The notes below the pieces were generated by a model. It worked only from the letters and a program-made list of their open reading frames with translations. It was not told the origin of the DNA and ran no database searches. Position numbers and translations under genes: made by a program. Below, piece after piece: positions 14,888 through 54,768 of a stretch of 64,000 nucleotides of DNA (the first letter of the stretch is position 1; the number at the start of each line of letters is the position of its first letter). Source of the DNA: a virus. The stretch is from positions 19,088 through 83,087 of the IMG/VR virus record IMGVR_UViG_3300019360_000007; one strand, written 5' to 3'.

Positions 14888-14890
14888 GGC

Positions 14891-16129: not shown

Positions 16130-16132
16130 GGC

Positions 16133-17410: not shown

Positions 17411-17613
17411 GACTCTCTCCACATCGTGGTGGAGCAGGTCGGTGGATCGTGCTCACAGCGCAAACGATTCACATGTGTGAGTGCCCGTGTACATGTACGT
17501 CTGACCGTCCCACGTTGGGGAGGATGCGGACAGCTCGAAGTGGGATTCTTGCATTCCCATCTGATTCACGTTCACGTCTGCGTCTGTGACGCTTCCACCG
17601 ATTGCTCGGGTTG

Positions 17614-17633
17614 AAAAACCCCCTGGCGGGAGG
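17614..17633 (-). terminator. Candidate intrinsic terminator after tail tube gene
   Basis: On the minus strand the sequence reads CCTCC, loop CGCCA, GGGGG, then TTTTT, a short stem (one G-T pair) followed by a U run, 44 bases downstream of the tail tube stop. It could attenuate transcription so that chaperone and tape-measure genes are made at lower levels than the tube. The rest of the 266-base gap (17411-17676) shows no gene; it holds several short palindromes around ACATGT. Confidence 0.55.
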
Positions 17634-17676
17634 CGCTGGCTTGGGCAGGATCACGAGACCGTACCCGAGAACTGGA

Positions 17677-18468
17677 CTAGACCGTCACGAAGTCGGAGGC
17701 GGCTCTCTGATCGCCCACGTTGTAGCGCACCGAGCCGACCTGGCCGATGGTCGGGTCGTTGCCGGTGGCGAGGAACTCGCCGTACTCGGACGAGAAGTCG
17801 TGCACGTCGGAGATCGTGATGTCCCCGGTCTCCATGAGCATGCCAGTGTCGCGGCCCAGGTTCGTCAGAGACCACGAGTTGAACCAGCACGTCTCGTAGA
17901 GCGTGATGATGGCCGTGTGGCCGCGCAGGTCGCCGGGGAAGTTGTTCGGGTCGTTCGTGACCTGCGGGTAGGTGATCTCCTTGACGCCGCCGTCGAAGGT
18001 CCCGCCCCCGCCGTTGAACCCGACTCCGGCCTGTCCGGTGAGGTCGAAGTCCGCCAGCGTGGAGAAGACGAGCTGCTGCTCCACGTCGAACGGCCAGCGA
18101 TGGTGACGCAGGGAGCGCACCGGTCCGCTGATCCCGCCCGCGTAGCCAGTCGCCTGCCAGAGGTTCGAGAGGTAGAGGAGAGCCCGCTCGAAGCCGGCAG
18201 TCATCGCCTCGGTCACGCTCGGGACGAGCTCGGCGATCATGTCGCCGAAGCCGATGCCGCGGAGAGTGTCGATGGTGCGCGTCTCGTTCGGGGTGAAGCT
18301 CGACAGCACGCCCATCTGGAACAGGAGGTTCGCGTCGCTGCCGTAGGCCGGCGTCAAGACGCGGACCTTCTGGCTGACTGCCGTCCTCGTCTGCGGCGAC
18401 GTGCCGTAGTCGTAGATGTAGCTGGAGCCCTGAACTCCCTGCGCCGGGTTGAGGTCTTTGTTGGCCAT
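17677..18468 (-). CDS. Tail tube protein
   Basis: 263 residues, ATG at 18468 with AGGAAGG seven bases upstream, one of the best ribosome sites in the window. It is a beta-rich protein with Gly and aromatic residues and balanced composition (TDPNN-type turns, GVGFNGGGGTFDGGVKEITY). Size, the strong start, the terminator behind it and the position between the sheath region and chaperones/tape measure all fit the major tube subunit inside a contractile sheath. There is no direct motif, so the call depends on context. Confidence 0.65.
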   Translation of the reverse strand: MANKDLNPAQGVQGSSYIYDYGTSPQTRTAVSQKVRVLTPAYGSDANLLFQMGVLSSFTPNETRTIDTLRGIGFGDMIAELVPSVTEAMTAGFERALLYLSNLWQATGYAGGISGPVRSLRHHRWPFDVEQQLVFSTLADFDLTGQAGVGFNGGGGTFDGGVKEITYPQVTNDPNNFPGDLRGHTAIITLYETCWFNSWSLTNLGRDTGMLMETGDITISDVHDFSSEYGEFLATGNDPTIGQVGSVRYNVGDQRAASDFVTV

Positions 18469-18557
18469 GATCGCCTTCCTCTCGTCAGGCGGCCGACCCC
18501 GGGGGGCCGTTCACCGCGCAAAGTGGGGACGAGGGAGTCCCCTCCGAGAGAGAGGCG

Positions 18558-18564
18558 CCTATAG
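18558..18564 (-). promoter_or_regulatory. CTATAGG motif, candidate promoter for tail tube
   Basis: Minus-strand CTATAGG overlaps the stop of the Nudix gene, 90 bases before the tail tube start. The same heptamer, or one very close to it, occurs upstream of the FmdB gene at 32459 and of the paralogue cluster at 55461. It could be a promoter core, but no -35 box is evident. Confidence 0.3.
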
Positions 18565-19203
18565 CCTGGCAAGCGAGACCAGCCAGCGGCGGGCAATGCG
18601 CGCGGCCACGCCCTCCGCGGCTCGCGGAGAGTCCCCAGGACCGGCACCTTCGCCCCTCGCCGCCCTCGCCAGCGGGTTGCCTTCCACGAGCCTCCAAGCC
18701 TCCAGGGCTCGCCTCATGGCCTTCCGCTTCTCGGGGTCCTTCTCGGACCGCAGACGACGTGCCAGCTCGGTCGGCGGCACGTTAATGAAGGTGGCCAGCG
18801 AATCAGAAGATCCACCTCTCGCGAGCGACGCCTCTCGCGCCGCGATCTGCCGCCGCAGGCCGGGATGCAGGATGTTCCAGTGGGCGCGGATCCAGGCGGC
18901 GTCCGCCCAGACACAGGCGTCGTGCTCGCCGCACAGCGTCGGGGTCCATCCCACGTTCTCGCTCGTGGCCATGACCAGACAGTACGCTCCGTCGCGCGCC
19001 ATCTCCAGGACATCGTGCGGAGGCAGGTGTCCCGTCTCCTCCGCGAACTCCCTCTCCGCCGCCGCGAGCGGGGACTCGCCGTTCTCCAGGTGTCCTCCTG
19101 GAACGGACCAGAGCCCGACATCGTCGGCATCAGGCCCCGGTGCCCGTCGAACGAGGAGAACGACCTTCCCGTCAGTGAGCCAGAGCCCTGCGCGCTCGAT
19201 CAT
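18559..19203 (-). CDS. Nudix hydrolase
   Basis: 214 residues. Residues 35-58 carry a near-complete Nudix box: GGHLENGE, then REFAEETG, i.e. GX5EX7REUXEEXG with the final hydrophobic replaced by His. The catalytic helix glutamates are all present. Such enzymes cleave nucleoside diphosphates linked to another moiety (NTPs, NAD-type, capped RNA). The strand WSVPGGHLENGES is typical. The C-terminal ~80 residues are basic and helical (LARRLRSEKDPEKRKAMRR) and outside the domain. Its place between tail genes suggests a cargo gene rather than a tail part; the substrate cannot be read from sequence. Confidence 0.85.
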   Translation of the reverse strand: MIERAGLWLTDGKVVLLVRRAPGPDADDVGLWSVPGGHLENGESPLAAAEREFAEETGHLPPHDVLEMARDGAYCLVMATSENVGWTPTLCGEHDACVWADAAWIRAHWNILHPGLRRQIAAREASLARGGSSDSLATFINVPPTELARRLRSEKDPEKRKAMRRALEAWRLVEGNPLARAARGEGAGPGDSPRAAEGVAARIARRWLVSLARL

Positions 19204-19557: not shown

Positions 19558-19830
19558 TCAGATTCGATGCTTGGCGATGGCGGCGACCATCGCCTCTTCC
19601 ATGGCCTTCTCCGCCTCTTCTGCCGTTGCAGCACCGTTGTAGGCGGCCTCGGCAGCACGGTAGATCTTGGGAATGTCCATGATGTTGACCTGAACGCGCT
19701 GCCCGTGCTTGTAGTAGGTCTTCGAGATCAGCGCCTCGAGCTTCTTGCCCTTGAGCTTGGCCGTCGACTTGGCCCAGTGCTCGGACGCCTCGCGCAGCAG
19801 ACGACGTGCTTCTTGGATGTTCGGCTTCAT
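19558..19830 (-). CDS. Small lysine/alanine-rich helical protein
   Basis: 90 residues starting MKPNIQEARRLLREA. The ATG overlaps the stop of the upstream gene by 4 bases (ATGA), indicating coupling. Composition is Ala/Lys/Glu-rich and helical, with a central stretch YYKHGQRVQVNIMDIPKIY. No known motif; possibly a nucleic-acid-binding or scaffolding helper. Confidence 0.75.
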   Translation of the reverse strand: MKPNIQEARRLLREASEHWAKSTAKLKGKKLEALISKTYYKHGQRVQVNIMDIPKIYRAAEAAYNGAATAEEAEKAMEEAMVAAIAKHRI

Positions 19831-21374
19831 GGCGTCACCTTCACGATGTCTCCGTCGAGATAGCGCTGCATGCGGGCCGAGTAGAGTCGGTCACCCTTGC
19901 CGCGGAACACGACGAGGGACCGCGTGACCTTGGTGACCACGACCTCGTCTCCAGGGGCGTATGTGATCCCGGATCCGTAGTCGGCCAACCGCGTGAAGCG
20001 CATCCTGTCACCGACCTTCGGAGGGTCCGGGAGCCTGAAGCCCTCCTCCCGCATCTGGAAGTAGCGGGGGAAGTACTGCCGGATGGTCCTCTCGTGCTCC
20101 TCGGGACGCCCAACACGCGAACCCATCTTCCTCGCGGCGATATGGTCCCATTCCGGGTTCTCAAGGAACGGGATGCTGTAGGCGACGTCCTCCTCGTACC
20201 AGAAGGCACCGCCCCACACCTCGCCGTGCTTGATGGCGGCGGGGCTGAGCATCTTCCTCGCCACCGACGGAGCCACCCGCATCCCGCCGTGACCTGCCGT
20301 CGAGAACCAGGACACTCCGGGGACGATCTTGTACTCGGTCTGGGCCTGTCCCCACGGGGTCCTCGGCGCGGAACGGTCTCCGTCAGCCCAGTCTCGGTCG
20401 GCACGAGCGGTTCTCTCGTGCGCCTCCTTTCCATGGCGGAGGGCCCTGTCGATCAGCCCGGTGATCGCCGCTCTCTGACGCGGCGTGACGTCCTTGCCTT
20501 CCTCCTTCAGCCACGCCCTCAGGTACTGCGCCACTCCGACGGCCTTCGGAGATCCAGGCGCCATCCGTTCCAGACGGATCTCCGTCGCCCGGATCGCCTT
20601 GTCGAGGCCGTCTCTCTCGATGGCGTCTAGCCACCTCCGGCCGGCCCGCAGGTAGACATCCTTCGGGACGTTCACCGCCTTGGCCACCACGTCCTCGGCC
20701 GCCCTGAGATAGACCGCGCCATGCTGCGTCACTCCCCGCATCCCGAAGTCTGGATCGCGGACGTTCCCGCGTGGGTTCGTCCTCTCCGGCCCCTTCCAGC
20801 CCTTGGCCTTGAGGATGTCCCCGTTCTCCATGTCCACGAACGTGTGGACGCTCCGGCTGGAGCCCTCGTTCTTGACGATGCGCCAGTACTTCGGCCCGCG
20901 GTCGAGGGTGATCGTCGGCGGAGTCAGCTTCGGGTGGTGGGCGGCGAAGTACTTGTTGAGGGTCTCCTGGACCAGCTCGGCGTACTTCTCGGTCCGCCGG
21001 ACGATCTCCTGATCAAACGCCGCGCGCTTGACGAGACTGTACACGTCCCCCTCGTGCGGATCGGTCGATATCGTGATGACCTTGCGCTTGGCAAGAGCCC
21101 TGGCCGCCGACATGATCTTCCCGAGGTTGAGTCGCGTGCTGCGAGCAAGGTCCGTGAGGCTCGCTCGACCAGAGTCCGCTCGTCGTAGCGCATCGAGGAT
21201 GACATCCTGTCCGGCGGCAGCTTCCCGCGCTCTCGTGTCAGCATCGACCGACAGGAGGTCGGACGCCTCTCGTAGGAGGATCCGGGCCGTCATGACCCTC
21301 TCCGGGGACATCTTGCTCAGGAGATGCTTCTTGATCACTTGGCGAGCCTCCGTCACTTCTCTTCCGGCGGCCAT
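19827..21374 (-). CDS. Conserved phage protein of unknown function
   Basis: 515 residues. Residues ~65-100 look like a winged helix (SLTDLARSTRLNLGKIMSAA). Around 180-205 is the run FVDMENGDILKAKGWKGP followed by RGNV, a pattern I recognise as recurrent in phage proteins of unknown function. Around 345-400 is VPGVSWFSTAGHGGMRV followed by a W/Y/E/D-rich segment and a YFPRYF box, reminiscent of the DUF7007 type. The C-terminal 70 residues look like a small beta barrel (VGDRMRFTRLADYG, GDEVVVTKVTRSLVVF). The modular layout suggests a DNA- or host-interacting accessory protein rather than a tail part. Confidence 0.65.
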   Translation of the reverse strand: MAAGREVTEARQVIKKHLLSKMSPERVMTARILLREASDLLSVDADTRAREAAAGQDVILDALRRADSGRASLTDLARSTRLNLGKIMSAARALAKRKVITISTDPHEGDVYSLVKRAAFDQEIVRRTEKYAELVQETLNKYFAAHHPKLTPPTITLDRGPKYWRIVKNEGSSRSVHTFVDMENGDILKAKGWKGPERTNPRGNVRDPDFGMRGVTQHGAVYLRAAEDVVAKAVNVPKDVYLRAGRRWLDAIERDGLDKAIRATEIRLERMAPGSPKAVGVAQYLRAWLKEEGKDVTPRQRAAITGLIDRALRHGKEAHERTARADRDWADGDRSAPRTPWGQAQTEYKIVPGVSWFSTAGHGGMRVAPSVARKMLSPAAIKHGEVWGGAFWYEEDVAYSIPFLENPEWDHIAARKMGSRVGRPEEHERTIRQYFPRYFQMREEGFRLPDPPKVGDRMRFTRLADYGSGITYAPGDEVVVTKVTRSLVVFRGKGDRLYSARMQRYLDGDIVKVTP

Positions 21375-21616: not shown

Positions 21617-23317
21617 CTAACCGGAGATCTGGGCCCCGATGCGGGGCGGCTCAATGCCCAAGTCCAGGAGACGTCGCCTGAGAAAACCCTCGTCGAGCCC
21701 CTTCGGATCTGACTGACGCACCACGAGTGTGGCGTATCCCTCCTCCCGAGCTCGCCGCAGTTTGAGAAGATCGAGCCGAACGCGACGCTCAAAGTTCTCA
21801 GGGACCTTGTGCCAGTACGGGATGAACTCCTCGTGCTGACGCCCGTGCGCCTCGACCAGGAGCTTCACGAGAGGAAAATAGCCGTCGTAGCGCAGAGGAT
21901 AGTTGGTCTCCGGGTTCCTGATCCTCGTGTCCGTGTACTCCCACTCGTACGCCAGACCGCCGAGGACTTCGGCCACCCGGTCGAGCACCCGCTTCTGAAA
22001 AGCGAGACGGTTGCGGGTGGGGAGACCAAGCTGGCGGCAGTACCGACGGACGGCAAGTTGAGAACAGTCGCGCGCCTCGGAGGCTTCCGCCACGAGGACC
22101 CTGCCTGCGGAGTCCATGAAAGGGCGAAGTTGCTCCTCCGTAAGGTCCAACCGAAGCGCAGTCTTGTCCCTGATGACGGACCCTGTCGCCACGAGAAGGG
22201 ACTGGGGAAACAGAGACTTGTAGGCCACATGTGCGTGGGCATTCTGGACGTGACTGTTCAAAGCCTCAGCCCTGTGGCCACACAGGCGGCATGTGACGTA
22301 GTCTTCGGGTTCGCACTTGCCTTCCCACTGGGCTTCGATTTCCTCAAGTTGGCGGGCGGCCCGGCAGTCATCACAGCGCGTCTCGTGCGTCTCGGGAGCA
22401 AGAAACGCCGACACCTCGTGTAGGACGCGACAGTCGGGACACTCGATCTGCTTCGTAGCCCCCGCATGCGAGGACCTTTCCCATGACTCGGATTGCGCTT
22501 GAGACCTCCGCTCAGTCAAGGAATGCGCCCGGATCGGGACGTCGCCATGCTTGTTACGGTACTCGTCGGCCGTCAGCCCGTGCGCCTTGAGGTGCGTCGC
22601 CAGGGTCTCCCCACGAAACTCGCACTCTCGGCATCGCACGTAGTCGTCGTTCTCGATCTTGTCGACCCACCGGAGGTCCTCCTGGCCGTCCCTCCAGACG
22701 CGGTGAGCCTCATCCCCAGCAGCACAGCGATGACGCACGTGGGAGGCGAGTCCGCGTACCCCCTCGCACCGGAATCCACAAATCGGGCACTCCCGATCAG
22801 GATGACGCTCGGCACCCCTGCACTCCGAGCACAGAAGCCGGAGAGAGCGCGCAATCGAAACTCGATTTGCCCGGTAGATCTCGCCGCACCCCGAACACAA
22901 GACGTCAATCTCTTCAAGATCCCGAGGGCCCGAACGCGCCTGATTGTGCGCTACCGCCTTACGACGTTGGAGGTCCCGCGCACGCCCCTGCATGAGGGTT
23001 TCGCCGAATTCCTCCCCCCACCACCGCCTGACGACCGAGAAGTGAACCCCCGTGTGCTCAGCCACGCTCTTGAGAGAAAGCTCCCCATGGAACATAGCCA
23101 CCGCCGTGATTCGTGCCCGGTCGAGTTCGACGCCCTTGAGACGGCTCCTCTGGCCACTCTGGGCCGCTCTTTTACGGGCCTGCAAGCCCTCCTCGCCGTG
23201 CACCTCAACCCACCACCCCCGGACTTGATCCCGAGGAATGCTGAGGGACTGAGCTGCGTCGACGAGCTTAACGCCCTCATCGAACATTTGGAGGGCGCGC
23301 TGACGGATGCCGTCCAT
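21617..23317 (-). CDS. Zinc-finger homing endonuclease, EDxHD (Vsr-like) type
   Basis: 566 residues. The N-terminus has two similar helix-turn-helix segments (VDAAQSLSIPRDQVRGWW, VAEHTGVHFSVVRRWW). Five zinc-finger-like CxxC units follow between residues ~130 and 400, two of them of the MucR/Ros kind (CRECEFRGETLATHLKAHG). Residues ~465-560 form a nuclease domain: RYDGYFPLVKLLVEAHGRQH, with Asp near 478 and E..H near 490, matching the PD-(D/E)XK-derived EDxHD homing endonucleases related to Vsr and I-Bth0305I. It lies directly after the sheath gene and behind a start-blocking hairpin. It is likely a mobile gene that cuts a phage relative lacking the insertion. Confidence 0.8.
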   Translation of the reverse strand: MDGIRQRALQMFDEGVKLVDAAQSLSIPRDQVRGWWVEVHGEEGLQARKRAAQSGQRSRLKGVELDRARITAVAMFHGELSLKSVAEHTGVHFSVVRRWWGEEFGETLMQGRARDLQRRKAVAHNQARSGPRDLEEIDVLCSGCGEIYRANRVSIARSLRLLCSECRGAERHPDRECPICGFRCEGVRGLASHVRHRCAAGDEAHRVWRDGQEDLRWVDKIENDDYVRCRECEFRGETLATHLKAHGLTADEYRNKHGDVPIRAHSLTERRSQAQSESWERSSHAGATKQIECPDCRVLHEVSAFLAPETHETRCDDCRAARQLEEIEAQWEGKCEPEDYVTCRLCGHRAEALNSHVQNAHAHVAYKSLFPQSLLVATGSVIRDKTALRLDLTEEQLRPFMDSAGRVLVAEASEARDCSQLAVRRYCRQLGLPTRNRLAFQKRVLDRVAEVLGGLAYEWEYTDTRIRNPETNYPLRYDGYFPLVKLLVEAHGRQHEEFIPYWHKVPENFERRVRLDLLKLRRAREEGYATLVVRQSDPKGLDEGFLRRRLLDLGIEPPRIGAQISG

Positions 23318-23444: not shown

Positions 23445-26400
23445 CTAACCTCCGAGATTCGAGCGCAGGTTGAACGTGATCACAATATAGAGCAAAGGAA
23501 AAATCGGTTGGTAGAATGCTTCCACCTCCACAACGGTGGGGTCGTTCGTTGTGCGCGCCTGGATGCCGGTGAACGCCGCGATGATCTCGGCGTTCTTGAG
23601 CGCCTTCATGGTGGTCGCGAGCTGGCCCTCGATCTCGGACAGGACGCCCGGCAGGAACTTGATGCCGATGAACCTGTCGAGGTCGCGCCGCGCTGCCCTC
23701 TGGACCTCGTCGGCGATGGTGATGACCGTCGGGAGCTTCGTGAGGATGTTCGTCGGATCGGTCGTGAGTCCCTGCCGGACCCGGATGACCGTCCCCCGCT
23801 GCTCCATGACGGTGACGCCCTGCACGGCGACCTGGTTCTGCTCGACCGCGTCGAGTTTGCGGGCCAGCTCGTCGAACCCGACGATCCGAGCCCTCGTCCA
23901 CGGGGTCGCCACGTCGATGTTCGGCGACGCCCTGTTGCCCGCCATGGCGGCCGCGAGGTAGGTACCGTCCACCAGGAACTGCTTGAAGTTCCCGAGCGCG
24001 TCCTGGATCGTCAGGGTGACGATGTCCGGGTACACGAGGCGGATGCGCGTGTTCTCGATCTGCTGCGCGATCCCGCCGACTTCCGTGGGCTGCGTGCCCG
24101 AGGCCACGCCGATGATGCCGGTCCGCTCGGCGCGGAACCGGATGCTGGACTGGATGTCGCAGTGGTTGCTGAGCTGGAGGAACAGGTCGATGTCGTCGCC
24201 CCGCATCGGGGTGATCGTGTCGAGCACCGCGCCTCCAGGCAGAGAACCGCGCAGGTCGTTGAGCGCGTCGCTGTAGCTCTGCGTGCTCGCCTGGTTGCTT
24301 CCCGGGATCTTCGGCACCTGCTTGATGCCGAGGACCACGGCTCCGTTGAGGAACGCCAGGAACGCCGCGAGGGAGACCTGGTTGTCCGGCGTCGTGTCCC
24401 CGTAGTTCCGCTCCACGGCCCTCTGGCTCGTGAAGAGCATCGTCTCGAAGTCCGCCGCCGTCTTCGCGTAGTTGTAGGTGATGAAGTAGGAGTCCCCGAC
24501 GGCGGGCTCCTGGCCCCCGCGGTCGAAGGTCTCGACGATGGCCGTGTCGCCCTGCGGGATCGACGATCCCTCGGTGTTCGCCACGATCAGCTCGAGCCCG
24601 GAGATCGAGTTGACCGGGATGTTCGCGTCGGTCGTGACGAGCTTGCGCACCTGGAACGTGAACGAGGCCCCGGCCCCCGTCGGGTAATCGGCCCCGCCCG
24701 TGCGCGGGAGAATCGTGAACACGAGACCCGTCACCGTGTCGCGGTAGCTCTGGCTGATCATCCCGTCCTGGCCCACGCCGCTGTTGAAGCACGACGTGTT
24801 GGCCGAGCCCGACCCGTCGACGGGGTCGCTGCTCGTGACGAAGAAGCCCTGGAACCCCGACTCTCCCGCGGCGCCCTGGCCTGACGTGACGCCGAGGCCC
24901 GTCCCGGTGAGCAGCCAGTCAGCCGTGGTCGCGGTCTCGAACAGGATGTTCGACGAGGACCCGAGCCCGACGATGTTGTTGGCCTGGCTCTCGATGAACA
25001 GGAACTCGTTGTTCGCCGAGTCGCGCTCGACTCCCGCGAGTGCCTGGGCCGCGAACCACGTCAGGTCAGGCATCTGGTAGTCGAGGATGGCCCCGTTGAT
25101 CGTCGAGCTGTGGTGCATCATCAGCGCGGAGGCCACGAGCTCGGGATCGACCGTCGAGCGCGCCGCGGTCGCGCCCTCGGAGAACCCGAGCACGTTGTTG
25201 GCATTGCCGTTGCCGAGGGTGATGGCCGAGTTCGTGGTCACGATCCCGCTGACGAGGCGGATGCCGGCACCCTCCTGGGCCACCACGGAGGCCGGGAGAC
25301 CGGCCCCGACCGCGGCGTCCTGGATCTGCTTGAGCACCGTGTTCGGGAACGTGATCGGTCCGAGCGGCACGTCGGCCTGTCCGGCCGCCGGGATCGCCGC
25401 GCCCACCGAGTCCTTGAAGACGACGGTGAACGCGGTCCCGTCGATGTTCACCTTCCAGACGTTGTTCTGCGGGTTCACGCCGCCCGACCCGTAGAAGCGC
25501 ACGCGAGGCTGGCCATCGCGAGCGTCAGCGAAGGTACCGGCCGGGACTTGGCCGTCCTTGAAGCCGACCTCTCCGAACAGGGACGCGGGACGCAGCGTGG
25601 CCTCGATCCCGGCGAGGCCGACAGCCTTGGGCTGCAGGCCCGTCTCCGTGACCGCGTTCGTGCCCTGCGTGATCAGGCTCGTCTGCGCGACCTGGCTCTG
25701 CGGCTCCAGCGAGCCGGAGCCGGGGAGGACGCGGTTGCGCATGATGATCCGGTCGTAGATGAGCCGTCCCGACGTTCCCGACACCGTGAAGCGGCGCGCG
25801 ATGTCGCCGTCCACGATCTTGGTCTGCTCCTGGCTCGGCAACGCGTCCGTGGACAGGCCGCAGATGATGGCGAAGTCCTCCGCGACGGTGGCGCCGTCGA
25901 GGAATTCCCAGACGCCTCCGCCGAGACCGGAGCCTCCCGTGAGTGTCGCGCCCGATACCGGCAGGCGGATGGCGGTCGAGCTCGCCAGGGTGATGAAGTT
26001 GCCCGTCGGACCGGGCACCGCCGCCGTGATGTCGACGACGGCCGAGGTGCCGCTCGAGTTGTCCGCGGTCACGATACCCACGAGCCCGTTCAGCGCGTCG
26101 GAGATGGCTGCCACGAGGGACGACGCCACCTGCACCGTCGTCGCGCCGCCCACGAACGTCGCTCCCGAGACGGGCAGGCGCACACCGGTCGACGAGGCAA
26201 TCGTGTAGGTGTTGCCGATCACGCCGGGCGTGTCGGACCAGACGGTCACCGTGGTGCTGGTGCCTCCCGCGTTGTCGGCCGACACCGCGGCCGCCAAGCC
26301 GTTGCCGAGGTCGTTGATGGCGGCCACGATGCTGCTCGCGACCGTGAGGTTCGTGCCCACGCCGCCCGCCAGCGTCGGACCGCTCCGGATGAGCCTCGTC

Positions 26401-29400
26401 GCGCTGCTGCTCGCGAGGACGATGGTGTTGCCGGCGTTCCCCGGCGTGACGGCCGTGATCGTCACGACCGCCGCGACGACACCGGTGAACACGAGGGCGG
26501 GGAGAGACGCCGTGATCGACGCCCCGAGCGAGGTGGCGACGGTGGTGTTGTCGCCCACGCCACCGAGCAGCGTGCCCGCCGAGAGCGTGATCCTCGTGGC
26601 ACCAGTCGACTCCATCAGCAGGATGCCGTTTCCGACGGTCCCCGGCGTGAAGGACATGATCGTGACGACGTTGCTGGTGCCGCCCGCGTTGGTCGCGACG
26701 ACTCCTCCCACCAGACCGTTGCCCGCGTCGGCGATGGCTGCCACGAGACTCGTGGCGGCCGAGATGTCGTCGCCCACGCCTCCCGTGAGCGTCGCGCCGG
26801 AGAGCACGAACCTGCCCGCGGCGGTCGTGCTGAGCGTAATCGTGTTCCCCACGGCTCCCGGCGTGACGGCCGTGAGGACCATGGTCGTGGCCCCCGAAGA
26901 CGTCGCGGTGACGTCCACGGCGAACGAGTTGGCGACGTCGTTGACGGCCGCAATCGCGTCGTCGCGCGCGGACGTGTTCGTGCCCAGGCCGCCCGCGAGC
27001 GTCGCGCCGGCGAAGGTGAGGCGCGCCGGCGCGGTCGACACCGTGGAGATGGAGTTGCCGCCGGTCCCGGGCGTGATCGCCCGGAGGTCCACCGTGGCCG
27101 ACGTGCCGCCCGTGTTGTGCGCCTGCACCGTGCTGGTCAGGCCATTGAGAGGATCGAGGATGGCCGCAACGATGGCGGTGGCCGTCGTGATCTCGTCGCC
27201 GACGCCGCCGGCAAACGTCGCGGAGATCGTGACGGTGCCGTCGGAGGACAGGTTGGCCACGGCGTTCGCCGCCATGCCCGGCACCGTCCACGTCACCGTG
27301 ACGTCGTTCGGACCGGGGCCGACCGCCGCGCTCGAGAACGCGGCGAACGAGTTGAGCGGGTCGTTGAGGGCGGCCGCGATGTCGGCGGCGATGGCCGCCG
27401 TCGTGCCCAGCGTGTTGTCGTAGTCGTTCGCGCCCGGAGTACGAGGACCGCCGGCCGGGACGAGGACGTACGGACCACCCGCGATGGCGCCGGTGTCGAT
27501 GGTGATCGTCGCCGACGAGGGGGAGGCCGTCACCGTGATCGTCGCCGTCGCCTGGGTGCCAGCATCGAAGTTCAGTCCGCCCGGCGTCGTAACGTTGTCC
27601 GCCGTGAGCGGGATGCCGGCGATGGTGATCGTGTCCCCGTAGAGCACGCCCGTGCTCGGGAGCGCCGTGGTGACGACGGTCAACGTGCTGAGAGCACGCA
27701 CGCCCGCGAAGAAGTCGTCCGCGCCCGAGGTGCGGGCGACGTCGACGGGAGTCAGCACGTTGCCGTTGAGCGTGAGCGTGTCCGCGGCGACGACCGGGTA
27801 CGGGGCCGCCGAGGCCACCCGGACGCCGCTGAACCCGACGGTTCCGGTCGCGGCCGTGCCGACGTTGAAGTCGAGGCCACCCGGCGTCAGGGTGTTGCTC
27901 GCCGTGAGGGTCACGGGGCCGCCACCGACGACGGACGTGTCGATGGTGATCGTGTCCCCGTACTGGACGCCCATTAGAGTGGCCGTGCCCGACGCACGGG
28001 TGCCGACGTCGAACTCGTTCGCCGCCGGTGCCCCCGAGACGCCGAGGAACACTTGGCCGTCCACGGTGACCGTGTCGCCTGGGATCGGCCCGGCGACGGT
28101 GATGGTGCCCGTCGCGCGCGTGCCCTCGTTGAAGTTCAGGCCGCCCGGCGTCTGGGCGCCGGCCGCCGTGATCAGGACAGGTCCGCCGCCGGCATCGATG
28201 GTGAAGGTGTCGCCCGGCTGGACGCCCATCGGCATGAGCGTCGCGCGTGCTTGGCCCGTGTCGAAGTTCTGCGCGCCCGAGATCTGCGCGAGATCCCCCG
28301 TCAGGGTCACGCCGTCGATGGTGACGGTGTCTCCGAGAACCGCGAGGGCCGAGGTCACGGTCCCGGTGGCGAAGGTGCCGAGGTCGGTCGGGGTCGCCGA
28401 GAACGTGAACCGCATGCCTCCGTCGGCGTTCGCCGTGCACGTGATGTCCATGCCGGAGAAGCTGGCGGGGAGCGCCCCGATGGCCGTCTGGAGCGCGGAG
28501 TCGACCGCCGCCGCCATGGTCGTCGGCGACGTGTAGGTTCCCGGGGCGATGGTCGCCGTGACGGGACCCGTGGGTCCGTTGGTCACGCCGGTGTAGTTGA
28601 AGACGAGCTTGTCGTAGCGCCCGGCCGTGATCACCGTCGACCCGAGGAACCTCGTCGTCCCGTCGAGGAAGGGGTTGTTGGCGACGAGCTTCGCCTCGGC
28701 GTTGATCGCCTCGACGTACGCGTCGGCGTTCACCGCCGTCTGCGAGGGCACCGTGACGGTGACGACGACGCCGTCCACGGTGAACGACACGTTGTCGTTG
28801 ATCCCGCTGAGGATGTCGTAGGTCGTCTTGCCGGAGTCGTCGGTGTACTGGATCTCCTCGCCGAGCAGGCTCGCGTAGAACCCGAGCCCCTGGATCCCGT
28901 GCGGGGCGGAGAGGTCGATGCCCGCCGCTCCGCCCGCCAGCGCGCTGCTGTCGATGGTGAAGCGGGCCCGGTCGGACGCACCCGAGACGAAGAAGTACGG
29001 GCCGGCGCCCGGCACCGTGAACTTGGCGATGGTCGCGTCCTTGTCCGCGAACTGGACCGTGACTGTCTCCTCGACCGGCCCCTGCGTGCCGCCCTCGAAG
29101 TGAACGTCGGGCGTGAGCTCGCTGCCGGAGGGGAATTCGATGGTCACGCCCGTGAGCGCGGGACCCTTGCTCCCGAACTTCGGCGTGTAGATCGGGTTGC
29201 CGTTCTTGTCGAACAGGAAGTACGTGCCGATGCCCGACGGTCCGCTGGTCTCGACCTGGACCGTGTACTCCTCGTCGACCATGATGTTGTACCAGAAGGT
29301 CGCGAAGACGTCGGCACCCACGGGAACCGGGTTCTCGAGCGTGATGATCGTCCCCTCGACCTTGGTCACCGACACGGCGCCCCGGTTGAGCGCGTCCTCG

Positions 29401-30887
29401 ATGCCGAACCCCCAGAACGCCTGGACCAAGTTCGGGTTGTTGGTCGGCAGGTCGATGCGGGTGTTCGAGACCGAGAGGAACACGTCCTGCCCGAGCGGCG
29501 TGTCGCGCCCGTTGCCCGTCGTCGGCTGCGCGGGGAGACGGAACTGCGTGCGGCTCTCCACGGCGGGAATCACCGTGTCGACGACGACGACCTCCGTCGG
29601 CGCCATGAACCAGCGGTTGTCGATCAGGAGGGCCGAGATCTGCGTGGGCCCGAAGGGCGGAGCCCCCGGAGTCGTGATCCCGGGCGAGATCAGGAAGGCG
29701 GCTCCCCAGACGATCAGGTCGTCCTTGAGAACGAAGTCCGCGCCCTCGATGAAGTCGTTGTTGCCGGGCACGATGCCGCAGCGGATGACCTCCGTGACGT
29801 TGATGTTCGCGAGGTAGTCGAACGTGTCCTGCCAGGTGTTGAAGAAGTATTGGATCGTGACGGTGTCGCCGACCGCCGGGGCGAAGGGCAGCGTCACGGC
29901 CCTGTTCTGGCCGTCGACCTCCGTCGGGATGACCTGGACCGAGTTGACGCGCACGGTCACCTTCGACGTGTCGGTCGTGGTGATGCCGCCGTTCGAGCCG
30001 TCGACGATAGGCCCGTTGAAGGTGAAGAACGTGCGGTTCCGACGCGTGTTCTGGTTCTGCGTGAAGCCGAGAACCGAGTTGGCCGTGCCGTTCCCGATCA
30101 GGAGACCGTTGTCGGCGACGAGGCGCACCGCCGTGAGGCCGAAGTTGTTGGTGTAGGTCGACGCCACCAGCGACGTGCCGGCCGCGGCCCCGTTGATCAG
30201 GGAGACCACCGTGGCGGCCGTGACGCTGCCGGTGGGGAACGTGGCGGTCACGACCTGCTGCGTAGTTGCCGACTGGTCGAAGTCCACCGTCACGAGGAAC
30301 TGGTTGTTGGAGGAGGTGAACTCGTAGGCGTTGCCGATGGCCCCGTCGAGGATCGCTCCTTGCGTGGACACCTGGTCGGACAGGTTGTCCGTGATCTGCG
30401 TGTCGGTCCGCTTGAAGAAGTAGGTGACCCGGACGTCGTCGCCGAAGTCGGGCGCCGTGCTGATCTCGATCACGCCGATGTCGGCGCGGGCCACGCTCAG
30501 GACCACGTCGGGGCGACCGTTGATCGTGACCAGGATCGAGCTGGGGTCCGTGGCCGTCTTGCCGGAGCCTGACCCGTCCGTGATCGGGTAGTTGCGGACC
30601 CGGATACGGCGGCGCTCACCGTTGAAGTCGCCGAGGATGACCTCGCCGGTCATCGTGATCTCGACGACCGCGCGACCGGTCTCGTCCTCCTGGGGGACCT
30701 GCTGGTCGACCGAGCTGCTCGATCCGCGGATGACCTCCAAGTCTCGCTGCTGGAGCAGCTCGTTGCCCGTCCCGATGAGCACCGGAATGCGGACGCCCGC
30801 GAGGACGCCGGAGACCGGCGAGTCGAACAGGGTTCGGGTATAGACGCCAGGTGGCGCGTAAATGGTCCCAGGAAAATCCGCGGGCAT
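23445..30887 (-). CDS. Giant tail sheath protein
   Basis: 2480 residues, three to five times the usual sheath length (500-700). The N-terminus PADFPGTIYAPPGVYTRTLF is sheath-like. The C-terminal ~400 residues show the conserved sheath region: ITPMRGDDIDLFLQLSNHCD, NTRIRLVYPDIVTLTIQD, LVDGTYLAAAMAGNRASP (the 'aG..A..d' box), TRARIVGFDELARKLD and a final LYIVITFNLR strand. Between them, about residues 850-1655 consist of two families of tandem beta repeats that probably form decorations outside the contractile core. Start ATG at 30887 has AAAGGAAGC eight bases upstream, inside the last codons of the GIY-YIG gene. Confidence 0.9.
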   Translation of the reverse strand: MPADFPGTIYAPPGVYTRTLFDSPVSGVLAGVRIPVLIGTGNELLQQRDLEVIRGSSSSVDQQVPQEDETGRAVVEITMTGEVILGDFNGERRRIRVRNYPITDGSGSGKTATDPSSILVTINGRPDVVLSVARADIGVIEISTAPDFGDDVRVTYFFKRTDTQITDNLSDQVSTQGAILDGAIGNAYEFTSSNNQFLVTVDFDQSATTQQVVTATFPTGSVTAATVVSLINGAAAGTSLVASTYTNNFGLTAVRLVADNGLLIGNGTANSVLGFTQNQNTRRNRTFFTFNGPIVDGSNGGITTTDTSKVTVRVNSVQVIPTEVDGQNRAVTLPFAPAVGDTVTIQYFFNTWQDTFDYLANINVTEVIRCGIVPGNNDFIEGADFVLKDDLIVWGAAFLISPGITTPGAPPFGPTQISALLIDNRWFMAPTEVVVVDTVIPAVESRTQFRLPAQPTTGNGRDTPLGQDVFLSVSNTRIDLPTNNPNLVQAFWGFGIEDALNRGAVSVTKVEGTIITLENPVPVGADVFATFWYNIMVDEEYTVQVETSGPSGIGTYFLFDKNGNPIYTPKFGSKGPALTGVTIEFPSGSELTPDVHFEGGTQGPVEETVTVQFADKDATIAKFTVPGAGPYFFVSGASDRARFTIDSSALAGGAAGIDLSAPHGIQGLGFYASLLGEEIQYTDDSGKTTYDILSGINDNVSFTVDGVVVTVTVPSQTAVNADAYVEAINAEAKLVANNPFLDGTTRFLGSTVITAGRYDKLVFNYTGVTNGPTGPVTATIAPGTYTSPTTMAAAVDSALQTAIGALPASFSGMDITCTANADGGMRFTFSATPTDLGTFATGTVTSALAVLGDTVTIDGVTLTGDLAQISGAQNFDTGQARATLMPMGVQPGDTFTIDAGGGPVLITAAGAQTPGGLNFNEGTRATGTITVAGPIPGDTVTVDGQVFLGVSGAPAANEFDVGTRASGTATLMGVQYGDTITIDTSVVGGGPVTLTASNTLTPGGLDFNVGTAATGTVGFSGVRVASAAPYPVVAADTLTLNGNVLTPVDVARTSGADDFFAGVRALSTLTVVTTALPSTGVLYGDTITIAGIPLTADNVTTPGGLNFDAGTQATATITVTASPSSATITIDTGAIAGGPYVLVPAGGPRTPGANDYDNTLGTTAAIAADIAAALNDPLNSFAAFSSAAVGPGPNDVTVTWTVPGMAANAVANLSSDGTVTISATFAGGVGDEITTATAIVAAILDPLNGLTSTVQAHNTGGTSATVDLRAITPGTGGNSISTVSTAPARLTFAGATLAGGLGTNTSARDDAIAAVNDVANSFAVDVTATSSGATTMVLTAVTPGAVGNTITLSTTAAGRFVLSGATLTGGVGDDISAATSLVAAIADAGNGLVGGVVATNAGGTSNVVTIMSFTPGTVGNGILLMESTGATRITLSAGTLLGGVGDNTTVATSLGASITASLPALVFTGVVAAVVTITAVTPGNAGNTIVLASSSATRLIRSGPTLAGGVGTNLTVASSIVAAINDLGNGLAAAVSADNAGGTSTTVTVWSDTPGVIGNTYTIASSTGVRLPVSGATFVGGATTVQVASSLVAAISDALNGLVGIVTADNSSGTSAVVDITAAVPGPTGNFITLASSTAIRLPVSGATLTGGSGLGGGVWEFLDGATVAEDFAIICGLSTDALPSQEQTKIVDGDIARRFTVSGTSGRLIYDRIIMRNRVLPGSGSLEPQSQVAQTSLITQGTNAVTETGLQPKAVGLAGIEATLRPASLFGEVGFKDGQVPAGTFADARDGQPRVRFYGSGGVNPQNNVWKVNIDGTAFTVVFKDSVGAAIPAAGQADVPLGPITFPNTVLKQIQDAAVGAGLPASVVAQEGAGIRLVSGIVTTNSAITLGNGNANNVLGFSEGATAARSTVDPELVASALMMHHSSTINGAILDYQMPDLTWFAAQALAGVERDSANNEFLFIESQANNIVGLGSSSNILFETATTADWLLTGTGLGVTSGQGAAGESGFQGFFVTSSDPVDGSGSANTSCFNSGVGQDGMISQSYRDTVTGLVFTILPRTGGADYPTGAGASFTFQVRKLVTTDANIPVNSISGLELIVANTEGSSIPQGDTAIVETFDRGGQEPAVGDSYFITYNYAKTAADFETMLFTSQRAVERNYGDTTPDNQVSLAAFLAFLNGAVVLGIKQVPKIPGSNQASTQSYSDALNDLRGSLPGGAVLDTITPMRGDDIDLFLQLSNHCDIQSSIRFRAERTGIIGVASGTQPTEVGGIAQQIENTRIRLVYPDIVTLTIQDALGNFKQFLVDGTYLAAAMAGNRASPNIDVATPWTRARIVGFDELARKLDAVEQNQVAVQGVTVMEQRGTVIRVRQGLTTDPTNILTKLPTVITIADEVQRAARRDLDRFIGIKFLPGVLSEIEGQLATTMKALKNAEIIAAFTGIQARTTNDPTVVEVEAFYQPIFPLLYIVITFNLRSNLGG
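25930..27405 (-). repeat. Seven tandem ~71-residue repeats inside the sheath
   Basis: Each unit follows the pattern VAAI.D..NGL...V.A.N, then GGTS..V.I...TPG..GN.I.L.S, then RL..SGATL.GGVGD. Unit ends are visible as FAGGVGDE, LAGGLGTN, LTGGVGDD, LLGGVGDN, LAGGVGTN, FVGGATTV and LTGGSGLG. The repeats are diverged at DNA level but keep frame and length, consistent with folded beta modules and not a slippage artefact. Confidence 0.85.
27420..28340 (-). repeat. About seven ~40-residue GDTVTIDG repeats inside the sheath
   Basis: Units of the form GDT.TIDG..LT, then (G)A.TPGG.NF..GT.ATGTITV, occur about seven times just N-terminal to the 71-residue repeats. The first family and this family join at a segment containing both signatures. 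They probably form small beta-sandwich or beta-roll modules on the sheath surface. Confidence 0.75.
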
Positions 30888-30888
30888 G

Positions 30889-31617
30889 TCAGCTTCCTTT
30901 CAGTGCGGCTCGGAAGGCGTCGAGGGAGATCCGCGTGAAGTGGAATCCGCGACACGGAGTTCCACGACGAATCGACTTGGCGACGGCATCGAAGGACAGG
31001 CCAAGGGCCTTGGCTGCTTCGGTCGCCGACGAAAAAACGGAACCGTCGGAGCGTCGGACGGGATTCGCGTTGCCTTCACGAATGCGACGCTTGTGTTCCT
31101 CGGTGAAGGCCTGTCCCGTATGGGCGGCAGACATCTTGGCGCGCGTCTCTTCCGATGGCACACGACCCGAATGGCTCGTGGACATTCGCGCCCTGCTCTC
31201 CGCGGAATGCCTTCGTCCCTTCCAGAAATCACCGCGCCCATTCTCCAAGTTGGCGAGCTGTCTCGCGGAGACCCCGCGAGCCTTGGCCGAGGTCGACATC
31301 CTCTTGCGCGTCTCCTCGCTCGCGACAACTCCGTCTCCGCCCTTGGTCAGGTTGTAACCATGCGCGCGCTCGGCCGAACGGTAGAGGGCGATATAGTGCC
31401 GCTCCCGTTCGTTGGCCTCGGCGAGGGTCGCGATTCCCTTCTCAAGCACTTCCCAGGCCATGGCGGGTCCGTACTTGCGAAGAGCCGCGGAGAAATGGCG
31501 ACTCCTCGTGCGAGCCAGGTAGAGGTGCTCGATCTTGCGCTGGTCGAGACTGCGCCGCGTGATCCCGACGTAGACCTTCCCGCTGGGCGACGTGACCCTA
31601 TAGACCACGTACGTCAC
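30889..31617 (-). CDS. GIY-YIG homing endonuclease with NUMOD domains
   Basis: 242 residues from a GTG at 31617 (VTYVVYRVTSPSGKVYVGIT), preceded by AAGGAG 12 bases away; the frame is open further upstream but that part is unlike protein. Residues 3-90 are a GIY-YIG domain (YVVY...KVYVGIT, R18, E in the EANERE helix, GYNLTKGG). Residues ~95-180 hold four NUMOD3-like units (SEETRKRMSTSAKARG, HSAESRARMS, SEETRAKMS, FTEEHKRRIREG). The C-terminus is a NUMOD1-like helix-turn-helix (SSATEAAKALGLSFDAV). It inserts directly before the sheath and its last codons contain the sheath ribosome site. A mobile selfish gene. Confidence 0.9.
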   Translation of the reverse strand: MTYVVYRVTSPSGKVYVGITRRSLDQRKIEHLYLARTRSRHFSAALRKYGPAMAWEVLEKGIATLAEANERERHYIALYRSAERAHGYNLTKGGDGVVASEETRKRMSTSAKARGVSARQLANLENGRGDFWKGRRHSAESRARMSTSHSGRVPSEETRAKMSAAHTGQAFTEEHKRRIREGNANPVRRSDGSVFSSATEAAKALGLSFDAVAKSIRRGTPCRGFHFTRISLDAFRAALKGS

Positions 31618-31997
31618 GTCCGCAGGACGCTCCTTCCCGCTCGCGCTCGACTCGGAGGAGGAGCACGTCGCGTCGGGCCACGGGGTCGCCGTGGCGAGTT
31701 CGGTGGAGGTCTGGAGCATCGAGGTCGGCTGTTCGCTCGGGATCACTCCCGTCTGTCGGGCGCACTTCTCCTGCGAGCGCGTGACGCCCTGGGTGCAGTC
31801 GCGGATCGCGCTCGGTAGAGCGCCTTGGTTCACGTCTCCGTGCCCGTCTCCGTCGGTCTGTCGGTTCACGTCTAGCCGTCCCCTCGCGGGGAGGAAGCGT
31901 TCTGCGGGCCTGCTAGGCAGGCTGCGTTCACATCTCGTCTGTCGGTCTGGTCACGTCTGGGTCCTCCCTGCGGGAGGCCGGGGTTGCGACTGTCGCC
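31618..31997 (-). other. 380-base region without a convincing gene; repeated TTCACGTCT motif and hairpins
   Basis: Between the FmdB gene and the GIY-YIG gene I see no reliable CDS. On the plus strand TTCACGTCT or a one-base variant occurs at 31829, 31865, 31927 and 31950. Small hairpins occur at 31880-31891 (CCCC/GGGG), around 31910 (GCCTGCTAGGCAGGC) and around 31963-31977 (CCTCC/GGAGG). As this precedes the sheath in the operon it may hold a sheath promoter or mRNA-processing elements. Confidence 0.45.
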
Positions 31998-32512: not shown

Positions 32513-33772
32513 CTAGCGCAGCATCTCGCCCGTCCCGTAGACCCCCGAGCGGCCCAGCTTGCCGACGAAGAACGGGTCCCACGGAGCCCGGAGACCGAGG
32601 GACGCCAGGGTGCGGAAGTTCGTCTGGATCTTCGCGATCTCCTCGTCGGAGAGCCCGGCGATCTGCTCGATGAACGGGGCGATGAGGGGGGCCTGGCCCT
32701 GCGGCACGGGCTCGCCCCCGGCCTGCTCCACCCCGCGGATCGTGATGCCGAGGGGGACGTGGATGCTCCAGTCGGTCTGGAGCTGCAGGCTGAAGCTGGC
32801 GTTGTAGAACCAGTCGTCAGCGACCTCGTCGTACTGCTCCTCCGTCTCGCCGCCCATGTTGACCGAGGCGATCTCGATCCCCATGCTGGAGAGCCGTGGT
32901 CGCGCGGTCGCCCAGAGGTACAGAGCGGTCTGGTCGAGGATCTCGCGCTGAGACAGAGGGTCGCGGGCGATGACGTCGAAGTCCAGGGTCAGGTCCCAGC
33001 GACCCCCGAACTCAAGTGCCGAGATGGTGCGCTTGTCCTGGACCACGACGGCCAAGCGGTCCCCGGCCGTGATGCGCCTCCCGAACGCAAGGACCGTCCC
33101 GGGAACGGGTTCCCGTAGAGCTCGGTCCTCGCGAACCTTCCACGGGCCCGTCGTCTCGCCCGGGCAACGGTAGTCGGCGGACAGGAACTCCTCGTCGGCC
33201 AGCTCGTCGATCAGGTCGATCTCGCCCGTGTCCGGGTCGGCCGTGTAGTTGGGGCCCTCGTAGAGCCGGAGGTTCCCGGGCATCCGGTAGAGGCGCAGCG
33301 TGCCGGAGAGGAACTTCCCCTTCTGGAGCTGGTACTGGGTGTCGTTGATCTTGAGGACCGTCTCGTCGATCACGTCGAGGAGCGGGTCCACGAAGAACTC
33401 CTGGTCGGTCGGCGAGCCATTCGCGTCGCAGAAGTCGAGGAAGTAGATGCCGGCCGCCGAGGGGAAGAACCCGCCGTTGTTCTGGATGGCGACGAAGTCC
33501 TCGCGCACCCACTCGACGGAGAGGTTCGGGTACCCCTCGACGTGGGCGAGGTACACGTAGCTCATCACGTGGCCCTGGAAGTTGTCGGCGGCGAGCGCGA
33601 CCTGGTTGCCGGCAGAGTTCTTGATCACGATGCCGAACTGCGGGCGCTCGCGGAAGCTGTACTTCCCCTGGATGTGCTGGACGATGTCCTTGTACTTCGG
33701 GTGGTACGACCAGTATCGGCGAAGCTCCTCGATGAACTTCCGATGCACCTGAGTTGTGAGGAAATAGTACAT
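32513..33772 (-). CDS. Virion structural protein, tail/neck region
   Basis: 419 residues, ATG at 33772 with GAGGGGTAGGAG in front. The N-terminus MYYFLTTQVHRKFIEELRRYW is followed by a mixed alpha/beta protein with turns such as DANGSPTDQEFFVDP and strands YASFSL-like (DWFYNASFSLQLQTDW). A Leu-rich helical C-terminus ends GKLGRSGVYGTGEMLR. No enzyme motif. It is near the actin-like gene and upstream of the sheath, so a tail-terminator, neck or sheath-cap protein is plausible but unproven. Confidence 0.7.
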   Translation of the reverse strand: MYYFLTTQVHRKFIEELRRYWSYHPKYKDIVQHIQGKYSFRERPQFGIVIKNSAGNQVALAADNFQGHVMSYVYLAHVEGYPNLSVEWVREDFVAIQNNGGFFPSAAGIYFLDFCDANGSPTDQEFFVDPLLDVIDETVLKINDTQYQLQKGKFLSGTLRLYRMPGNLRLYEGPNYTADPDTGEIDLIDELADEEFLSADYRCPGETTGPWKVREDRALREPVPGTVLAFGRRITAGDRLAVVVQDKRTISALEFGGRWDLTLDFDVIARDPLSQREILDQTALYLWATARPRLSSMGIEIASVNMGGETEEQYDEVADDWFYNASFSLQLQTDWSIHVPLGITIRGVEQAGGEPVPQGQAPLIAPFIEQIAGLSDEEIAKIQTNFRTLASLGLRAPWDPFFVGKLGRSGVYGTGEMLR

Positions 33773-33864: not shown

Positions 33865-34884
33865 CTAGGGCTCGTCGTCCTCGTACTCCTGGAGAGCCTG
33901 GACGAGGAGACCGCGCGCGACAGCCTCCAGCGGATCGCGGGCCGCCCTGATCTCGCTGACCTCGATGGGAAAACGCCTGCGCTTCTCCTCGAACACCTTC
34001 TTGAAGAACTCCAGGAACCCGCCAGCCTTGCTCGTGCCCCCCGAGACCACGATGGGGATGGCCTTCGGCAGGGCGAACCGGCTGCGCACCTTCTCGAACT
34101 CGCTCGCGATGGTGTCGAGCGTGTACTCGATCAGGTTCTTGTAGTAGACGACCAGGGCCTCCTGGTCGCGGTCGGTCGGGTGCAGGAGATCGAGACCCTT
34201 CTCCTTGAGCGCGCACGTGCGGGCCTGGGTGGAGCCGACGCTCCTCGCGGCCCCGGCATCGATCCAGTCTCCTCCGCGACCGACGCTCGCGGTGAATCCC
34301 TCGACCGTGTTGATCGCCAGCGCGATGTTCGTCATCCCGGCGCCGTAGCTCAGCGCGACCCCGCTGAATCCTTCCTTGGCGCACTCGCTGTAGACGATGG
34401 CCATTGCCTCGTTGCCGGGGACCGCACGGTAGCCGCACTCCTCCACGATCCTCTGGAGAACGCCTCGGTGGTAGATGACGTCACGCGACGGGTCATCCAC
34501 CGGCGCGGCGGGCACGCTGAAGCAGCAGACCTCGCGCTCCTCTGCGGGATCGCCCAGGACGTGGCGCACGAGGACACCGAGGATCTCGAGCGCGTCGACC
34601 TCGCCCGCCGAGACGAGGCCAGACTGGAGCGGTCGCCTGACCTCGGCCCCGAGCATGTTGGCCATGTCGTAGGCCGCGTCGCCGACGATCACGAGCCTGT
34701 CGTTCTTCTCCACGTAGTTCACGTTGGAGAGCCGCAGCATCTTCCGGTGCTCGCGAGGGAAGTCGATGAAGGCGTCGCGCATCCTGTTGGTCACGACGCC
34801 GTCGCCCGTACGACGGGCGGAGACCACGTTCATCGTCCCCAGGTCTAGCCCCCTTCCGGGGATCGGTCCTTCACGCTCTGCCAT
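33865..34884 (-). CDS. Actin-like (ParM/MreB/Hsp70-fold) ATPase
   Basis: 339 residues. Phosphate-1 loop: GLDLGTMNVVSARR at residues 11-24. Phosphate-2 loop: ALSYGAGMTNIALA near 178. Adenosine motif: IPIVVSGGTSKAGGFLEFF near 278. The connect region VGRGGDWIDAGAA is also in place. The length is right for a ParM/MreB-class bacterial or phage actin. It may form filaments to position phage DNA or particles, but its place within a tail/neck gene run (between a structural gene and a proline-rich protein) leaves open a chaperone-like assembly role. Start ATG 34884. Confidence 0.8.
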   Translation of the reverse strand: MAEREGPIPGRGLDLGTMNVVSARRTGDGVVTNRMRDAFIDFPREHRKMLRLSNVNYVEKNDRLVIVGDAAYDMANMLGAEVRRPLQSGLVSAGEVDALEILGVLVRHVLGDPAEEREVCCFSVPAAPVDDPSRDVIYHRGVLQRIVEECGYRAVPGNEAMAIVYSECAKEGFSGVALSYGAGMTNIALAINTVEGFTASVGRGGDWIDAGAARSVGSTQARTCALKEKGLDLLHPTDRDQEALVVYYKNLIEYTLDTIASEFEKVRSRFALPKAIPIVVSGGTSKAGGFLEFFKKVFEEKRRRFPIEVSEIRAARDPLEAVARGLLVQALQEYEDDEP

Positions 34885-53703: not shown

Positions 53704-54768
53704 TTACGGGGTGAAGATGGTTCCGTCGTCGTTGTAGACGACCACGGCCTCGCCGTTGGGGCTCCCCGCGACGCCCGCGTAGACGAATCCCGAGTCGAGG
53801 AACCCGGCGAGCTCGCCTCCCGCCACGGAGAGATTGAGCGCGCCCGTCGGGAAGATGTCGCGGAGAGTGCCCGCGACGAATCCCGGACCGTTCGGAGCGC
53901 CGACGTTGGGGACGACGTCGAAGACGCCGCCCGCCGTCTCGATCTGCGTGTCCTTCGGAACCTGGTAGATCCGCCCCGCGAGAACGTCGAGGAGGTCGGA
54001 GAGCTGAGCCGCGGTGATGGACGCGGTGGCGACGACGGCCGCGATGACGACGTTGACCGAGGCCAGATCCGCGGCGACCGCCGGCAGCGTGAGATCGCCG
54101 AACCTGATGATGTCGTCGAGGATGTCGGTGGCGATGGTGTTCGCCTCGAGGGCCGTCAGCGCGGCCGCGTCCGCGCCGCCCGCGAGCGTCGCACCCGATG
54201 GGGTGATGTTCGCCGACATATCGGCGAGGGTGATCGCGTTCGACGCCGCGCCTGGCTCGACGGCCGTGATCGTCACGACGGCGGCCGCCACGGTGCCCGT
54301 CACGTAGGGTGTGAGGCCCAGGGCGGGATTGTTCAGGATCACGTTGAAGTTGCCAGCCGTCGCCGAGTTCGTCGTGCCGATGAGGACCTCCGTCGGCAGC
54401 ATCGGGGCGTCCCGGAAGGTGAACGTCACCGTAGGACCCCCGACGGGTCCCGTGCCGACGGTGATCGTCTCTCCGTCCGCCACGGCGGCGGGGCCGAACG
54501 TGAAGGTCCCGGACGCGAACGCGCCCGTGCCGTCGCTGACGTTCGTGATGATCCACGCAGCGAGACCCCTGATGGGGCGGAAGATCGACGGTCCCGCCGC
54601 CCCCGACGGGTCGTAGACCACGACCGTGTCGTTCAGGACCGGATCGACGTACTTGGTCTGGCCCGGAGGATCGACCACGTAATTGCGCAGGGACGTGTTC
54701 GGCTCGAGGTCGAGCACCTGGAGCGTCCCGGCCGGGATGTCGTCGCGCTTGAGGATGATGTACGGCAT
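53704..54768 (-). CDS. Beta-rich virion protein with sheath-type repeat, paralogue 2 of 3
   Basis: 354 residues, ATG at 54768 (MPYIILKRDDIPAGTLQVLD). It shares the paralogue framework (NYVVDPPGQTKYVD, GLAAWIITNV, LLDVLAGRIYQ) but has an insertion of ~110 residues (ADGETITVGTGPVGGPTVTF, AAVVTITAVEPGAASNAITL, SGATLAGGADAAA) that closely resembles the sheath's tandem beta units. The inserted module probably folds independently. Confidence 0.7.
   Translation of the reverse strand: MPYIILKRDDIPAGTLQVLDLEPNTSLRNYVVDPPGQTKYVDPVLNDTVVVYDPSGAAGPSIFRPIRGLAAWIITNVSDGTGAFASGTFTFGPAAVADGETITVGTGPVGGPTVTFTFRDAPMLPTEVLIGTTNSATAGNFNVILNNPALGLTPYVTGTVAAAVVTITAVEPGAASNAITLADMSANITPSGATLAGGADAAALTALEANTIATDILDDIIRFGDLTLPAVAADLASVNVVIAAVVATASITAAQLSDLLDVLAGRIYQVPKDTQIETAGGVFDVVPNVGAPNGPGFVAGTLRDIFPTGALNLSVAGGELAGFLDSGFVYAGVAGSPNGEAVVVYNDDGTIFTP

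Follow-up and report, generated by a model that had tools for sequence, protein, structure and literature searches.

The tail-sheath protein is defined by a core made of its N- and C-terminal parts, between which variable domains are inserted. In the sections of their survey cited here, Evseev et al. (2022) modelled more than 100 sheaths of 321 to 1283 aa and described multi-domain forms, mostly from large phages, whose additions are often Ig-like and lie away from the tube; adhesion or stability was proposed as their role (PMC9230969). Phage G (Donellivirus) has a 579-aa sheath, gp178, known from cryo-EM. The outermost sheath domain in that map comprises residues 120-218, and on contraction the sheath widens from 240 to 320 Å while its rise falls from 4.15 nm to 18.9 Å (PMC8570332). 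Longer sheaths are found in Tunturiibacter phage Tunturi_5 (gp326, 1204 aa, annotated as tail sheath) and, at 1665 aa and without annotation, in the uncultured phage LR745208.1. Jumbo phage CBB has a hairy tail with fine projections (PMC5259590). The gene for its ~119-nm whiskers is not known, and the sheaths of its Rak2-like relatives RaK2 and SP27 have 887-888 aa (PMC9230969).

We analysed a 64,000-nucleotide stretch of the IMG/VR virus record IMGVR_UViG_3300019360_000007 (positions 19,088 to 83,087; hereafter, the window). The 83,087-base record contains one sheath gene, a single open frame of 2480 codons that has no internal stop. With good confidence, its product is the sheath of the contractile tail of a myovirus of the huge-phage type; it carries a large modular insertion, predicted to point outward, in which two families of repeated half-modules, A and B, form an array. 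The protein shares a homologous core and a similar tail gene order with phage G; gp178, however, has one small outer domain and no A/B array, whereas the insertion here amounts to ~2,000 aa. The LR745208.1 sheath aligns at 47-48% identity with the regions on either side of the array (window aa 10-830 and 1648-2476), but nothing matches in between and the entire array is absent there. Tunturi_5 gp326 has counterparts of window aa 10-659 and of the core, but it is about half as long and also lacks the array. The Type 3 multi-domain sheaths likewise combine a two-terminus core with inserted beta-rich domains; the longest, however, has 1283 aa, about half the present length, and the cited sections of the survey describe no fixed-copy repeat array (PMC9230969). 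Type 3 is defined by at least three domains, with the extras away from the tube; many modules can be seen in the window protein, and their position is read from the insertion site only. Extra sheath domains are already known, and what is new here is the size, the A/B array and a stepwise series of relatives. No sheath longer than 2480 aa was present among the matches listed in the viral model library or among the relatives that we collected, in a search that was not exhaustive.

Identification of the sheath protein

Used as a tblastn query, the 2480-aa protein matched proteins annotated as tail sheath in Tunturi_5, Phrappuccino, phage G and numerous actinophages, and for short sheaths the match was limited to its C-terminal ~390 aa. 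A profile of the C-terminal region found 5li2, the solved structure of the Staphylococcus phage 812 sheath (E 5.7e-11), and in an alignment of seven sheaths the two termini make up the core, with the variable domains lying between them. The first-pass annotation of the window had proposed a sheath of 2480 residues with intact terminal sheath regions and with two families of tandem modules in ~800 residues of the middle. All of this holds: the frame is unbroken and its product homologous to annotated sheaths, the N terminus (PPGVYTRT...RIPVLIGTG) and the C-terminal region align with sheaths, and seven A plus seven B half-modules account for 816 aa.

Structural comparison was made with a relative of the window protein, the shortest complete one (L086, 1016 aa). 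Its AlphaFold2 model had a mean pLDDT of 70, with the core mostly at 85-94; the best PDB matches of this model were sheaths (8q1i, E 7e-15), and its best viral fold match was phage G gp178 (E 1.3e-37). When the complete window protein was compared with Pfam, PHROGs and NCBIfam, no sheath name was returned, and none of the curated sheath families (Pfam PF17482 and others) matched it. For PF17482, the 1016-aa relative was exactly at the cutoff and the Tunturi_5 sheath below it. A DUF4815 match (E 2.7e-4), being under the family cutoff, was set aside.

Judged by homology and position, the gene sits in a contractile-tail gene cluster (Table 1). Homologues of Tunturi_5 gp322 and gp324 and of phage G gp175 and gp177 neighbor it on one side. 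On the other side is the tail tube candidate, whose phage G homologue gp180 is itself a published tube candidate (PMC8570332), and then, by position, two chaperone-like genes, the putative tape measure and a protein with a weak gpV-like OB match. We base the sheath identity on core homology, the 5li2 profile match, the fold of the 1016-aa relative and this gene order.

Table 1. Features of the sheath gene and related genes (window coordinates)
Feature	Position	Strand	Evidence
Tail sheath gene, 2480 aa	23445..30887	-	Intact ORF; homology to annotated sheaths; kept in ~10 contigs
N-terminal sheath core part, aa 1-45	30753..30887	-	Common to Tunturi_5 and LR745208.1; partly phage G and Phrappuccino
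Outgoing arm domains (predicted), aa 46-838	28374..30752	-	Present in relatives with sheaths of 1635-1829 aa
Seven A half-modules, aa 839-1161	27405..28373	-	HMM, 7 matches
Seven B half-modules, aa 1162-1654	25926..27404	-	HMM, 7 matches; phrog_28344, E 1.9e-8
Returning arm domains (predicted), aa 1655-2084	24636..25925	-	Kept in relatives
C-terminal contractile sheath core, aa 2085-2480	23448..24635	-	5li2 profile match; BLAST matches: phage G gp178, Phrappuccino gp73
Tail tube candidate, 263 aa	17677..18468	-	Homologues: Tunturi_5 gp329, phage G gp180; in 47 related loci
Putative tape measure, 1043 aa	11756..14887	-	Position; by-eye sequence (long, hydrophobic segment); no family match
Tail terminator-like protein	32513..33772	-	Homologues: Tunturi_5 gp324 (annotated tail terminator), phage G gp177
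Other protein with one contiguous A-helix-B unit	53704..54768	-	By-eye reading; phrog_28344

Position of the insertion and predicted arms

In the alignment with shorter sheaths that the first-pass annotation had suggested, the window protein has no more than two stretches in common with those of phage G and Phrappuccino (507 aa), its first ~45 residues and ~aa 2092-2474. Relative to these sheaths, ~2,000 aa (aa ~46-2084) are inserted between the N-terminal part and the core, and the array is only part of this insertion. In the outgoing arm, three beta modules, each with (T)YFF/YNT..D at its end, can be recognized by eye (aa ~100-165, ~290-360 and ~455-545), and the model of the 1016-aa relative has three strand patterns that match them.

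By alignment, the insertion site is the position of the outermost sheath domain of phage G; the C-terminal match starts at phage G residue 192 (BLAST). Because of this site, and because extra domains of the modelled sheaths in the cited part of the survey lie away from the tube (PMC9230969), the 2,000 residues are expected to point outward, and the A/B modules would form arms on the tail surface.

By homology, both chain ends form the conserved core, the part that grips the tube and contracts. We propose that each subunit also bears an outward arm whose chain runs out through aa 46-838 to a tip of seven A/B domains and back through aa 1655-2084. The expected result is a tail covered with bristle-like arms, which would resemble the hairy tail of CBB.

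A tape-measure protein sets ~0.15 nm of tail length per residue. For the putative 1043-aa tape measure this gives a tail of ~156 nm, an estimate that depends on an unconfirmed gene assignment. With the rise of phage G and six subunits per ring, the same putative tape measure leads to an estimate of ~38 rings, 226 subunits and a sheath of ~60 MDa. At 220-230 subunits (estimate), the bristle coat would place ~1,600 A/B domains outside the contracting core. The first-pass annotation had envisaged a tail covered by thousands of extra domains. Insertion at the outermost-domain site makes such a coat the natural expectation, and the estimated ~1,600 A+B domains, or ~3,200 half-modules, are of the right order. 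Arithmetic from the phage G values suggests that the outer surface per subunit falls from ~5,200 to ~3,200 Å2 on contraction. The latter still fits an arm 25-30 Å thick, and the arms therefore do not forbid contraction. The protein raises the question of how a sheath whose subunit is nearly four times that of T4 (659 aa) still contracts, and a modular sheath of this kind is a testable source for the hairy tails of jumbo phages.

The A/B array

All seven A half-modules precede all seven B half-modules. The A units are ~45 aa long (range, 40-52; consensus RATGTLTVTGVVPGDTITIDGIVLTADGARTPGGLDFDEGT). The B units, ~70 aa long (range, 66-73; consensus ITVATSIVAAINDPLNGLATLVTADNTGGTSATVTLTAVTPGVVGNLITLASSAATRLVLSGATLAGGVGDD), resemble a helix followed by strands. 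HMMs built by hand from the window's own copies recovered the 7+7 pattern in the other contigs, with A copies mostly at E 1e-10 to 1e-18 (weakest, 5e-6) and B copies mostly at 1e-16 to 1e-27 (B1 weaker), far beyond chance. Self-BLAST of the whole protein produced no off-diagonal matches, tblastn with the array alone found nothing in 50,697 phage records, and a family-profile search returned no Ig family for the array. AlphaFold2 with 8 related sequences gave no usable model of the array (pLDDT 29). Contiguous A-helix-B units exist elsewhere: one can be read by eye in another window protein (Table 1), and sister sheaths contain them as well. A and B are therefore probably parts of one domain. 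The B array and the other window protein both match phrog_28344.

One hypothesis, to which we give less than even odds, is that the halves pair nested (A1-B7, A2-B6 ... A7-B1) through recursive insertion at the A/B joint. Each new domain would have entered the A/B joint of the preceding one, giving the order A1[A2[...A7 B1...]B6]B7. The equal and invariant 7+7, the A-A and B-B junctions, and the occurrence of one contiguous unit both in relatives and in the other window protein agree with nesting. In a mirror (distance-matrix) test, reverse pairing gave r 0.68 (rank 79 of 5040) and direct pairing r 0.08. When the outlying A7/B1 pair was removed, r fell to 0.32 (rank 133 of 720) and direct pairing did equally well. 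Since the signal depends on this pair, the test is not proof of nesting. Alternatively, A and B could each have been duplicated in tandem on its own; this would yield the same arrangement, and the equal counts would be a coincidence. If nesting is correct, each subunit would bear a hairpin-shaped bristle without branches, in which seven split domains are stacked; the sheath would have grown outward by recursive self-insertion, and a hairy tail could be made without separate whisker proteins.

The arms may act as a surface coat that makes weak, multivalent contact with cells or particles, a role we hold to be a little short of evenly balanced. Cross-bracing of neighboring subunits is a possible role that we put forward with more caution. 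The first-pass annotation had also suggested, as possible roles, sugar binding or stiffness during contraction. Arms that are specific sugar-binding receptors would be in line with a proposal, cited in the survey sections used here, that phage Ig-like domains are weak carbohydrate binders (PMC9230969). The array did not bear out sugar binding. It is acidic (pI ~4) and rich in Gly, Ala, Ser, Thr and Val, and its 816 aa include only 2 Trp and 6 Tyr, a composition that speaks against sugar-binding platforms of the classical type; the family-profile search found no carbohydrate-binding family match for it. We regard specific receptors as unlikely.

Origin of the array

The number of copies at the array site among relatives is 0, 1 or 7, and seven of each is the mark of the window clade. 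In four relatives (L044, L055, L064 and L066) the site is naked, with ~34 aa between the flanking anchors; four others (L021, L022, L053 and L087) have one A-B-like unit there, ~120 aa more. In a maximum likelihood tree of the core, L021 and L022 are the sister of the 2480-aa clade (support, 97/98). This places a 1-to-7 expansion on the 2480-aa branch, unless L021 and L022 lost copies. Sheath lengths in the tree form steps of ~500-580, ~1000-1200, ~1410-1550, ~1640-1830 and 2480 aa. The tree is rooted at its midpoint, and the branches of phage G and Phrappuccino are long; for these reasons, the direction of expansion rests on the nested copy series rather than on the root. Relatives with 0, 1 and 7 copies support an origin of the tip by multiplication of one A-B domain at a pre-existing insertion site. 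The lineage thereby records the stepwise gain of a large outer mass by a contractile machine whose core is still constrained.

Several relatives are on contigs of 300-619 kb, of which the largest in the 2480-aa clade has 618,736 bases. The lineage therefore includes huge phages. A scan of GTDB genomes with the sheath core found no relative and so suggested no host.

Conservation and selection

About 10 independent contigs from different metagenomes, including the 618,736-base one, keep the 2480-aa length and the architecture, and no disruption of the frame was found. All complete members checked carry seven A and seven B (the seventh A of L017 scores below threshold), at 68-92% identity in the array region. 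For the array, the Nei-Gojobori method gave dN/dS of 0.09-0.31, compared with 0.07-0.17 for the core; these values are approximate, since dS is near saturation in some pairs. The array value exceeded that of the core in 3 of 4 comparisons and equaled it in the closest pair, which fits the expectation for an exposed part. By these estimates the protein is kept as a whole under purifying selection, without decay.

The same data bear on three other explanations. The array might be a chance build-up of repeats, functionless and merely tolerated on the tail surface; the divergence of the A and B copies would agree with this, as would the statement, in the cited part of the survey, that the T4 sheath does not depend on its extra domains in order to form (PMC9230969). 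A copy number fixed at 7+7 across contigs this divergent and dN/dS well below 1 speak against it, and we judge it improbable. It is more doubtful still that the protein is a precursor cut by a phage protease so that only a shorter sheath, without modules, reaches the virion. Jumbo phages such as phiKZ do process many virion proteins (PMC13282480), but excising the middle would sever the N-terminal part of the core from the C-terminal part, and the exact 7+7 and low array dN/dS in ~10 contigs favor a retained structural part. Misjoining of metagenome repeats, which tend to break assemblies (L003, L100, L102 and L104 end inside the sheath gene, the last three inside the array), has a negligible chance of explaining the architecture and was rejected, since separate contigs from different metagenomes share it under purifying selection.

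Because contigs end in the sheath gene, the clade may be under-counted in metagenome assemblies.

Other genes near the sheath

The tail cluster contains an actin-like ATPase (33865-34884, -) that matches Pfam Volactin PF25216 (E 9e-74) and, weakly, actin-like ATPases in the PDB; relatives of this gene are near the sheath in 47 related loci. Endonuclease-like genes flank the sheath gene on both sides: GIY-YIG/NUMOD3 upstream (30889-31869, -) and, downstream, an HTH/zinc-finger protein with a weak HNH-family match (21617-23317, -). Several stretches of a 776-aa protein (48204-50534, -) match homing endonuclease families. Between the tube candidate and the sheath are a NUDIX-domain gene (18559-19203, -), with relatives in only 7 related loci, and a DUF7717/DUF7007 gene (19827-21374, -). 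On L010 (record G000), a 3341-codon frame (9177-19199, -), cut by the end of the stretch, adjoins the tail genes and possibly encodes a baseplate protein.
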